Part shown: in pieces, positions 10,939 to 15,159 of the stretch | Position numbering within the stretch: the stretch's first letter is position 1 | Layout of the letters: every line of letters begins with the position of its first letter | Source: Candidatus Cloacimonas sp. | GTDB taxonomy: Bacteria; Cloacimonadota; Cloacimonadia; Cloacimonadales; Cloacimonadaceae | Assembly (NCBI GenBank): GCA_039680785.1 | Contig: JBDKSF010000026.1 | Span: 1 to 64,000, forward strand | DNA: 64,000 nt | Direction: 5' to 3' | Program-made: the position numbers and the translations under genes | Notes under the pieces: generated by a model | Database searches by the model: none | What the model was told of the DNA's origin: nothing | Seen by the model: only the letters and a program-made list of their open reading frames with translations

Positions 10939-11760
10939 TTATCTGTAGAGAAACAAGTATCTGTCTCTTTCGTTCCAGTCCTTATAGGGGTCGATTTTTG
11001 TCCAGCCCTCTTTTTCAGCTGTTGCCATAATAGTTTCTTTTTGGGTTTCACCATATTCCAGAGCAAGAAAACCGCCAGTTGCAAGGTAGGCAGAACTTAA
11101 CGATAGCAGTTTTCTATAAAACGCAAGACCGTCTTCTCCACCGTCCAAAGCTATGGTTGGCTCATAATCTCTGATTTTCGTTTCCAGTGAGGATAATTCA
11201 TTAGACCTGATATAAGGTGGGTTGGATATAATGACATCATAAGTTTCACCATCTACGGGAAAACAATCAGCGAGGGAAAAATGGATGTCGGCAGAGTATT
11301 TTTGAGCGTTTTCTTTAGCAATATTTAGCGCAGAACTACTGATCTCGGTTGCGAAGACATTTAGAGAAGGCAAATTATATTTTAAGGCAATTGCTATTGC
11401 TCCACTGCCTGTTCCGATATCCAAAATTTTCTCCTTTCCCTTTAAGTGGTTCAAAGTTATTTCCACTAAATGTTCCGTTTCGGGGCGCGGAATCAAAGTA
11501 GCGGGATTAACTTTCAATTCCAAACCGTAAAAATAAGCTACATTTGTTATGTATTGAGGCGGCTCACCTTTTTCCAGACGGGAAATAGCTTCCGCGATGG
11601 TTTTTCTTTCCAATTCTGTTAGAATCCGCTTTCGCGAGAGAAAAATTTCATTTCTGCTCAAGTTCAGATAGTGTGAAATCACATACCAAAAATCTGATTC
11701 TGGAATACCTTCTGCCAGAGCTTTTTTCTGGACTTCGGAGATAAGCTCAGCTAAAATCAT
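10939..11760 (-). CDS. prmC: Peptide chain release factor N5-glutamine methyltransferase
   Basis: This 273-residue protein has the PrmC/HemK layout: an N-terminal helical domain (to about residue 75), then a SAM-dependent methyltransferase domain with LDIGTGSGAIAI (113-124) and the NPPY motif (180-183) that holds the glutamine side chain. The preceding PRPETE (91-96) is also typical. It methylates the GGQ glutamine of release factors RF1 and RF2. In the genome it starts inside the end of the switch-protein gene (4-base overlap) and ends 14 bases before murA, so translation is probably coupled. Being in the same run as fusA fits its role in translation. Confidence 0.92.
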   Translation of the reverse strand: MILAELISEVQKKALAEGIPESDFWYVISHYLNLSRNEIFLSRKRILTELERKTIAEAISRLEKGEPPQYITNVAYFYGLELKVNPATLIPRPETEHLVEITLNHLKGKEKILDIGTGSGAIAIALKYNLPSLNVFATEISSSALNIAKENAQKYSADIHFSLADCFPVDGETYDVIISNPPYIRSNELSSLETKIRDYEPTIALDGGEDGLAFYRKLLSLSSAYLATGGFLALEYGETQKETIMATAEKEGWTKIDPYKDWNERDRYLFLYR

Positions 11761-12674
11761 ATCTGAGTGTTATTCAGCAACTTTTTACTTATTGAAACCT
11801 TCCTGCCTTGTTTGTCAAATTCCAATTTGTCGGAGAGATGATATAGCATAGAAATCCCTCTCCCGCTTTCTTCCAAATTCAGTTTTGGTTCTTCTGTAAC
11901 TTTTTTTAACCACTTCTCATAATCAAAACCGGGTCCATCATCTTCCACGCTTATTTTAATCGTATTGCTTTTATGGCAAATAAAGAACTGGAAGCGTAAC
12001 CGTTTAGCGGCAATTTCAGGTTGTTTAAGCCGTCCATTTATAATGGAATACAGTTCGTTATGATCAAGCATTCGTTCTTCCACGCTTAATCCAAGTGTGC
12101 CATGAATATAGGCATTATAAACCATCTCATCTACACAGATGAGAATTTCGTTCAGCAAATTGTGTGAAATATTGAAGTTTTGTTGCAGGAAATTATTGAA
12201 CAACTCAGATACGGCAAATTTGGAAAAATTGCGAGGATCAAGCACAAAATTAAATTCTGCTTTTTCCAGGTTATTATAAAATTCACTAAAGTCCTTGCGT
12301 TTCATTTGGCGTTTATGAATTGCCTGAACAGAACGAAGTAACTGTTTGGTTTCTATTGGTTTGCGTATATAATCAGAAACACCCAGTCGGATGGCTTCAC
12401 TAAAGTATCTATGGTCCAAAACATTGCTCGTTAAAATTACATCTAAATCTGGATCATAATCGTTACGCACTTTGGCAAGAAAATCCAAACCGTTTATTTC
12501 GGGCATTTCTATCCCACAGATAACCAAATTATACTCTGCGGATTCAATTTTATGTAATGCCTCTGTTCCGCTAAAAGCTATGTCAGCTATAAAACCATTA
12601 GTGTTCAATGATTTTGCCAAATCATCAACTACAGACCTGCTATCATCCACTACCAGAATGCGAAATTGTTCCAT
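11757..12674 (-). CDS. Pseudo-receiver fused to a GHKL (RsbW-like) ATPase domain, partner-switching regulator
   Basis: Residues 1 to about 125 form a response-regulator receiver domain: acidic pair D10-D11, a conserved Lys in IRKP, and the loop LVICGIEMPEING. The Asp that is normally phosphorylated is Gly54 (codon GGG at 12513-12515), so the domain cannot accept phosphate in the usual way. Residues of about 150 to 300 form a GHKL ATPase domain with an N-box (DEMVYNAYIHG), a G1 box (DDGPGFD) and a G2 box (GRGISMLYHL), closest in build to anti-sigma kinases such as RsbW or SpoIIAB. The gene follows the STAS gene by one base, as expected for a kinase and its antagonist. No sigma factor and no PP2C phosphatase lie nearby. 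It probably controls a sigma factor or other target by switching partners, which is inference. Confidence 0.82.
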   Translation of the reverse strand: MEQFRILVVDDSRSVVDDLAKSLNTNGFIADIAFSGTEALHKIESAEYNLVICGIEMPEINGLDFLAKVRNDYDPDLDVILTSNVLDHRYFSEAIRLGVSDYIRKPIETKQLLRSVQAIHKRQMKRKDFSEFYNNLEKAEFNFVLDPRNFSKFAVSELFNNFLQQNFNISHNLLNEILICVDEMVYNAYIHGTLGLSVEERMLDHNELYSIINGRLKQPEIAAKRLRFQFFICHKSNTIKISVEDDGPGFDYEKWLKKVTEEPKLNLEESGRGISMLYHLSDKLEFDKQGRKVSISKKLLNNTQI

Positions 12675-12675
12675 A

Positions 12676-12984
12676 TTAGCCCAAATTAACCGTAAATAAT
12701 TGATTCAATTTTAACATTGAGAACAGTTCATATACACTATTTGAACTGCGAACTACTTCAATTTCTCCTCCTTTGGTAATGAAATCTTTGTAAAACAACA
12801 AAATTTTCCCTATTCCTGTAGAACTAATATTCCTGCAGTCAAGTAAATCAAGCTCCAGAAGAGTTGCCTCGGACTTTAGAACTTCATTTAATTTCTCCTG
12901 AAGCAGATAGGCATTTTCACTGTTCAAGATGCCTTCAATCTTCATTTTAGCCACTTTGCCATCAATGGAAAGATCAATATTCAT
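12676..12984 (-). CDS. STAS-domain anti-anti-sigma factor homologue
   Basis: The 102-residue protein is a single STAS domain: an ISID-type first strand, KIEGILNSENAYLLQEKL, then LDLLDCRNISSTGIGKIL, where the serines of the ISSTG turn are the usual phosphorylation site in SpoIIAA and RsbV proteins. Such proteins bind an anti-sigma kinase when unphosphorylated. The start is the ATG at 12984: a perfect AGGAGG lies at 12993-12998. The frame is open further upstream to 13041 but that extension has no ribosome binding site and runs up to the fusA stop. It is followed after one base by the GHKL switch protein, its probable partner. Confidence 0.85.
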   Translation of the reverse strand: MNIDLSIDGKVAKMKIEGILNSENAYLLQEKLNEVLKSEATLLELDLLDCRNISSTGIGKILLFYKDFITKGGEIEVVRSSNSVYELFSMLKLNQLFTVNLG

Positions 12985-13041
12985 CTTTGTTACCTCCTCT
13001 CTTTTTTTTATTATTTTAAATTCATCTAAAATGTCAAGCAT

Positions 13042-15153
13042 TTATTCCACATAACCGCGAATTCTTTTTAACACTGCATTTTGAACCTGCACCGGGCAAA
13101 TCTCGTATTTTTTAAACTCCAGAGTGTATATGGCTCTTCCTTGGCTTAAGGAACGAATCCGGGTAGCATAGCCAAAAAGTTCTGAAAGAGGAACATCTGC
13201 CACAATTTCTTGTTGATATTCATTATGCCGACGCATAACTTCTATTTTTCCGCGCTTGGCGTTAATATCGTTCAAAATATCACCGGCAAATTCATCCGGA
13301 GACAAAACCGTCATCAGCATTATAGGTTCCATCAATACAGGGGAGGCATCTCTAAGACCTTTTCCGATAGCTATTCCAGTGGCAATTCTAAAAGCCGTTT
13401 CATTGGAATCCACCGGATTGTAGTTTCCTCCGATAAGTTCTATGTTTACTTTTTCCACATTGCCACTAATTAGAGGACCATCATTTAGAGCACTAAAAAC
13501 TGCCTCTTCAATCGGTTTCCAATATTCAGGGGGAATTTGTTCCTCGGTTACTTTATTGATGAATGTATTTTTTGCATCCTCGGAGGGGTCTTTTATTATA
13601 AGGGGACTTAAGCGAAATTCTACTGCCGCATAATTTCCTTTGCCATTCATTTCGCGTTGGAAGACCTCAGCACTTTCGACTTCTTTAGTTATGGTTTCTT
13701 TATAAGAGACCTGCGGATTGCCCTGGTTAACGGCAATGCCAAATTCCCGCTTTAATCGATCCACAATAATTTCCAGGTGCAATTCTCCCATTCCTGAAAT
13801 GAGAGTTTGCCCTGTGTCTTTATCTATATGAACCTGAAAAGTTGGGTCTTCTTCTTCCAAACGCTTGAGGGCAATATCCAGATTTTCTTGATCTGCTTTT
13901 GTTTTTGGCTCTATCGCCATAGCGATAACTGTATCCGGAAAGTGCATTTTGGAGAGCAAAACATTTTGCGTTTCATCGGTTATTGTATCTCCCGTAATTA
14001 AAAAACGAGAACCGACAAGGGCACCTATATCGCCTGCCTGAAGGCAATCCAAATCATTTTTACGATTGCTCATCATCTGTAAAATGCGGGCAGCTCTTTC
14101 TTTTTTACCGTTACTTTGGTTTATGAATGAGGAGCCCTTTTTTAGCGTTCCAGAATATACCCGAATGTAAACTAAACGGCCTACATACTTATCTATTTGA
14201 ACTTTGAAAGCCATCGCTACAAGATTACCTTCCGGATCGGGAGCAATATCTACGGTTTGATGTGTTACAGGATCAAAACCTTGAGTTGCACCAATATCCA
14301 ATGGCGAGGGCAAAAAATCGCAAATTCCATCTAAAAGAAGTTGTATTCCTTTATTTTTCAGTGAACTACCACAAAAAACAGGAATTAACTTACATTGTAT
14401 CGTTCCTTTCCGAATGGCATCTTTCAGCAAATCCAAAGGGATATCATCCCCTTCCAGCACTTTTTCCAAAAGCTCTTCACTAAATTCACTAACCTTATAC
14501 AGAAGTTCTTCGCGCATCGCTAAAGCGGATTCCAGATATTTTTCCGGGATGGGAGAGTGCTTCACTTCAAAACCACAAGTTAAAGGATCAAAATAATATG
14601 CCTGCATTGTTAGCAGGTCTATCACACCTTCAAAATTATCTTCTCTGCCGATCGGAATATTTACTGGATATGCATTAGGGGTAAGACGCTCTCGAATCAT
14701 TGACACACAATGATAATAATCTGCCCCAATCCTATCCATTTTATTTACATAAGCCAAACGCGGAATATGATATCGATTTGCTTGATGCCAAACAGTTTCT
14801 GATTGTGGTTCCACACCCCCAACGCCACAAAAAACACCAATTGCTCCATCTAAAACTCTTAGCGAGCGTTCTACTTCCGCAGTGAAATCTACATGGCCGG
14901 GAGTATCGATAATATTTATTTGGCGATCATTCCAATAACAAGTTACCGTTGCCGAAGTAATAGTAATTCCTCTTTCGCGTTCTTGTTCCATCCAATCCGT
15001 AAATGTATTTCCATCATGCACTTCACCCATTTTATGCAAGTAACCAGAATAAAACAATATCCGTTCCGTGGTGGTCGTTTTACCAGCATCGATATGTGCC
15101 ATTATACCTATATTTCGTATTTTAGAAAGCGGACTATCCGCATCGCTATTCAT
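13042..15153 (-). CDS. fusA: Translation elongation factor G
   Basis: A 703-residue five-domain EF-G. The GTPase motifs are all present: [11 protein letters not shown] (P-loop), [10 protein letters not shown] (switch I), DTPGHVDF (switch II), NKMD and the GSS loop. Domain IV starts near YKETI and the C-terminal domain carries [10 protein letters not shown]. The protein moves tRNA and mRNA through the ribosome during translocation. The start is the ATG at 15153, with AAAAGGA 7 bases upstream; the TTG at 15159 is less likely. No rpsL, rpsG or tuf lie next to it, so this copy is outside the classical str operon. It heads the run to murA, although the small STAS gene is 57 bases downstream. Confidence 0.95.
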
Positions 15154-15159
15154 AAACAA

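Follow-up and report, generated by a model that had tools for sequence, protein, structure and literature searches.

The closest described relatives of the locus analysed here are two-domain regulators in which a receiver is joined to an RsbW-like kinase. LvrC of Leptospira, about 300 aa long with a receiver and an RsbW-like Bergerat domain, is a putative anti-sigma factor that is controlled by its receiver and is a target of phosphorylation by LvrB. When unphosphorylated, the receiver touches the partner subunit's Bergerat domain via a switch Phe, and phosphorylation is proposed to free the receiver from the Bergerat domain (PMC13269768). TciR of Vogesella indigofera has the same two-domain architecture and apparently conserved kinase residues, and it is served by a cognate kinase, TciK, in a host reported to be without an RsbV homologue (PMC12826045). 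SypE of Vibrio fischeri carries an RsbW-like kinase, a receiver, and a PP2C in one protein, has the STAS protein SypA as its target, and is not part of a classical sigma operon (as described in PMC12826045). In the SiaA/SiaB/SiaC/SiaD system of Pseudomonas aeruginosa, a sensor PP2C and a kinase control the phosphorylation state of a SpoIIAA-like protein (PMC7647112). Receivers lacking the phospho-accepting Asp are well known, with Gly making up 11% of such substitutions, and T/Y-type coupling pairs tend to persist in them (PMC4395418); the beta3-alpha3 and beta4-alpha4 loops are where pseudo-receivers depart furthest from true receivers (PMC12632262). Receiver-RsbW fusions such as LvrC and TciR, for which the functional and structural work found dates from 2025-2026, and Asp-less receivers are each already known, and their combination is apparently undescribed in the open-access literature, where we found no example of an Asp-less receiver on an RsbW-like kinase. 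Our literature search also returned no paper on Cloacimonas signalling.

The locus lies in a 64,000-nucleotide stretch of a Candidatus Cloacimonas genome (the window), and its features are as follows.

10939..11760, minus strand: prmC, the conserved downstream neighbour, whose start overlaps the kinase stop
11757..12674, minus strand: fusion of a receiver and an RsbW-like (Bergerat) ATPase, 305 aa (Pfam PF00072 and PF13581)
11784..12212, minus strand: ATPase/kinase domain of the fusion (PF13581 match)
12327..12659, minus strand: receiver part of the fusion (alignment with orthologues)
12513..12515, minus strand: codon 54 of the fusion, GGG (Gly) (codon alignment)
12676..12984, minus strand: stand-alone STAS protein, 102 aa, a SpoIIAA/RsbV-like antagonist (Pfam PF01740, E=2.4e-10)
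13010..13037, minus strand: putative STAS promoter, TTGACA, 16 nt, AATAAT (or 17 nt, ATAATA) (scan and upstream comparison)
13042..15159, minus strand: fusA (EF-G), the conserved upstream neighbour (above the TIGR00484 cut-off)

A preliminary description of this DNA recognised a STAS gene followed by a gene for a receiver joined to an RsbW-like ATPase, and Pfam recovers all three domains on the minus strand, with the fusion matching PF00072 over residues 6-116 (E=7.3e-22) and the Bergerat model PF13581 (HATPase_c_2) over residues 155-297 (E=1.2e-17), the latter with its N-box Glu/Asn and G boxes present. An AGGAGG ribosome-binding site precedes the STAS ATG at 12984, one base separates the STAS stop from the fusion ATG, and the fusion stop and prmC start share ATGA (11757-11760). 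The closest solved structures to the STAS protein are SpoIIAA, and its predicted phospho-acceptor, Ser55, is invariant in 54/54 sequences; in the ATPase, 53/53 sequences share the N-box residues Glu183, Asn187, and His191 and, in the G box, Arg272 and Gly273. These domain matches and invariant residues support the assignment as a STAS/RsbW-like pair, and a stand-alone STAS gene adjoins the kinase gene at the orthologous loci L003-L013 and L015-L068.

An AlphaFold model of the fusion (pLDDT 86, pTM 0.57, with domain packing uncertain) has LvrC as its best fold match (PDB 9qih, TM 0.72 over the whole chain), and LvrC also gives the only full-length profile match (E=8.4e-21) among the 60 matches listed. 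The window protein shares the N-terminal receiver and C-terminal RsbW-like domain of these regulators across its whole chain, although it is only 23% identical to LvrC, whose Asp53 can be phosphorylated and whose histidine kinase, LvrB, is known (PMC13269768). It differs from TciR in that its gene adjoins a STAS gene, and from SypE, with which it shares the RsbW-like kinase, the receiver, a putative STAS target, and the absence of a classical sigma operon, in that the window genome's PP2C is a separate membrane protein. No SiaD-like operon partner was found at the STAS-kinase pair. SiaB is not known to have a receiver.

The receiver of the window protein keeps D10, D11, and K105 but has Gly (codon GGG) at residue 54; the domain matches PF00072 and is missing Asp at the phospho-acceptor position. 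The preliminary description had reported these residues correctly, together with the consequence that this receiver is not phosphorylatable on Asp. Orthologues, sought in 125 genomes of the phylum and in one scan of genome contigs, are present in nearly all family members and in several other families of the same order, and within the family identity to the window sequences is mostly 70-93% for STAS and about 37-68% for the fusion. The relatives share the fusion, and they have the phosphorylatable Asp that the window protein lacks: Asp54 is present in 51/51 other genomes with a readable receiver (one further genome has no receiver), Gly is found in the window alone, and codon 54 is GAT or GAC in 8/8 congeners. 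The missing Asp is therefore private to the window genome and not a property of the system, which contradicts the suggestion that Gly54 is a designed feature, a suggestion for which a conserved Asp among orthologues had been named as the refuting observation, and it rules out Gly54 as a conserved trait. Judged from the alignment, Gly54 is a derived state of the window species. The receiver resembles known pseudo-receivers in having the fold without the phospho-Asp (PMC4395418, PMC12632262), but here the loss is confined to one species in a canonical orthologue group and is located on an RsbW-like kinase. A missing Asp read from a single genome can thus mislead, as the system normally has it.

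It is highly improbable that Gly54 results from an error in the metagenome assembly or consensus. The window genome (G000, Cloacimonadota; 2.07 Mb, 99% complete) is a 122-contig assembly and the one strain of its species compared, and Asp is otherwise universal at this position, both of which would favour an error; however, GGG is two bases from any Asp codon, the reading frame is intact, and independent private changes (M82T, T83S, G84N, and F102Y) lie in the same pocket, in agreement with the earlier judgement that an error is the less likely explanation. Nor is the receiver a pseudogene, because its frame, its D10, D11, and K105, its fold, and a Ser and a Tyr at the switch positions are all retained, which argues that some function is kept.

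Among sites at least 88% conserved within the family, seven in the window receiver carry private changes (D49N, D54G, M82T, T83S, G84N, A99V, and F102Y) and none in the ATPase does; taken by itself, this count falls short of significance (Fisher p=0.09). Several of the seven fall in the phosphorylation pocket, and the structure model places the seven at the ends of strands 3, 4, and 5 or close by. Branch lengths were estimated on a fixed topology and bootstrapped: the window protein's terminal branch measures 0.52 substitutions per site in the receiver vs 0.12 in the ATPase, with the receiver branch longer in 100/100 bootstraps. The receiver branch is also the longer one in the sister species G001 (100/100 bootstraps) and G004 (95/100), whereas three other, non-sister lineages sampled run in the opposite direction, with the ATPase branch longer. 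The receiver/ATPase ratios of the window, G001, and G004 rank 1st, 2nd, and 4th of 30 (one-sided p=0.0005, an optimistic value since the trio was chosen after the tree was seen). HisKA domains number 7, 2, and 8 in G000, G001, and G004, compared with 20, 24, and 19 in near-complete sister species.

Loss of a histidine kinase feeding the receiver, a hypothetical event, would explain all of these patterns, and loss of input fits a clade-wide relaxation, the clade being much poorer in histidine kinases than its sister species. The most likely account, which we consider somewhat probable, is that the window species has lost the two-component input to a partner-switching pair and kept the core switch; the retained features of the receiver count against it. 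An alternative, which we regard as unlikely, is that the receiver has been repurposed, its remodelled pocket sensing a ligand or binding a protein and still regulating the ATPase as in other pseudo-receivers. Several of the substitutions are in the two loops of greatest pseudo-receiver divergence, beta3-alpha3 and beta4-alpha4 (PMC12632262), the frame and Lys105 are retained, and the T/Y switch pair, of a kind that tends to persist (PMC4395418), is conservatively changed to Ser83 and Tyr102; the fast receiver branch may also mean positive selection. However, the sisters share no common new pocket, since G004 has independently lost the pocket Thr (T83G) and has S12N, while G001 has V79F and L86V, and G025 seems to have dropped the receiver entirely.

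The G025 locus (L066, G025:C18, 2206-2973, minus strand) codes for an ATPase without any receiver that adjoins STAS, with a start codon soon after the STAS stop; the whole receiver appears to have been deleted, although an assembly fault is possible. At L051 (G018:C68, 3480-4412) an in-frame TAA interrupts the receiver midway and the downstream ATPase is intact; here too a sequencing or assembly error is possible. One residue of the acidic pair is missing in G055 and likewise in G056. We suggest tentatively, as something possible rather than probable, that in Cloacimonas and its relatives the kinase receiver is turning into, or being replaced by, a phosphorylation-independent part, repeatedly and independently, through loss of Asp, loss of Thr, a nonsense mutation, and deletion of the whole domain. 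If so, these genomes would hold a natural series in which two-component input is removed from a kinase still under selection. The orthologue group already contains receivers with Asp intact, with Asp replaced by Gly, and with Thr replaced by Gly, as well as a kinase whose receiver is absent, all on a near-constant STAS/kinase core, so the contribution of the receiver is testable by comparing existing proteins.

A further alternative, less likely still, is that Gly54 locks the receiver, and with it the ATPase, in one constitutive state, leaving the output fixed on or off. LvrC provides a structural precedent, as its unphosphorylated receiver packs on the partner Bergerat domain via the switch Phe (PDB 9qih; PMC13269768), the equivalent position is altered in the window protein (F102Y), and the model agrees with LvrC over the whole chain. 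Locking, though, is accompanied by no compensating private ATPase changes at conserved positions and is a state that sequence cannot tell; it also overlaps with loss of the two-component input, from which it is distinguished only by whether the fixed state has consequences.

Under loss of the two-component input, for which we infer the phosphorylation reactions, the partners, and the direction of control, the RsbW-like ATPase would bind the STAS protein and phosphorylate Ser55, a step that would be undone by a phosphatase, for which the single PP2C of the genome is the likeliest candidate. The state of the STAS protein, free or phosphorylated, would set how much ATPase is available for holding its target, candidates for which are an RpoD/RpoS-type sigma factor or a diguanylate cyclase. 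In most Cloacimonadota the kinase receiver would be phosphorylatable and add a two-component input, whereas in the window species the change of Asp54 to Gly and the altered pocket would leave the receiver unphosphorylated, so that, if active at all, it may be a fixed structural or docking part.

Elsewhere in the window genome there is exactly one SpoIIE-family PP2C, a membrane dCache-HAMP-SpoIIE protein unlinked to the pair, as well as four members of the sigma-70 family, likewise unlinked to it; the one compared with family models is RpoD/RpoS-like. The statement that no sigma factor or phosphatase is nearby thus holds locally but does not extend to the genome. There is one free STAS protein, the other match being the STAS domain of an MlaE permease, and one RsbW-like ATPase, the other match being an ordinary cNMP-binding histidine kinase. 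With a single PP2C, a single free STAS protein, and a single RsbW-like ATPase, the genome could support a minimal partner-switching circuit, in which the PP2C would act as phosphatase of the STAS protein. The preliminary description had proposed looking for a PP2C with co-occurring distribution, and PP2C orthologues are present in 42/50 family genomes but absent from G028, G032, and G033, which retain the STAS-kinase pair; the PP2C is therefore not an obligatory partner, and its profile, near-universal yet absent beside some pairs, is uninformative as proof of partnership. The genome's PP2C scores against the SiaA model, far under its cut-off. A SiaD-like cyclase was rejected as a target, as neither of the two GGDEF proteins is linked to the pair; one has an apparent PAS-like N-terminus and the other has no recognised partner domain. 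The sole SpoIIE-type phosphatase gene is directly downstream of a gene for an NMT1/THI5-like binding protein (L080, G000:C96, 4050-7011), and from this adjacency the PP2C may sense whatever that protein binds.

The arrangement fusA-STAS-kinase-prmC-murA is kept throughout the family and extends to several other families of the order, so the synteny behind the earlier proposal of control tied to translation or cell-wall synthesis is real. However, a CTTGACA -35-like box is present about 62 bases upstream of the STAS ATG in 39/45 family members, compared with a chance expectation of about 1.5 in shuffles for all 54 regions together, and it is trailed by an A/T-rich -10-like region; the box was absent upstream of STAS in the six genus g7 genomes examined. 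From its conservation, the STAS-kinase pair probably has its own promoter, and the fusA/prmC neighbourhood thus by itself lends little weight to a role in translation or wall synthesis. The proposal is further weakened by the lone PP2C encoded elsewhere, whose sensor type is one used in partner switching, and by the EF-G being of the ordinary TIGR00484 type. The CTTGACA, its leading C included, is invariant immediately past fusA although the DNA around it varies, and a conserved A and T/TG follow some 17 bases further along. Separately, the genome codes for a second EF-G-like protein (L097, G000:C28:6927-8942), which is 30% identical to the window fusA product and adjoins a YebC-like gene.
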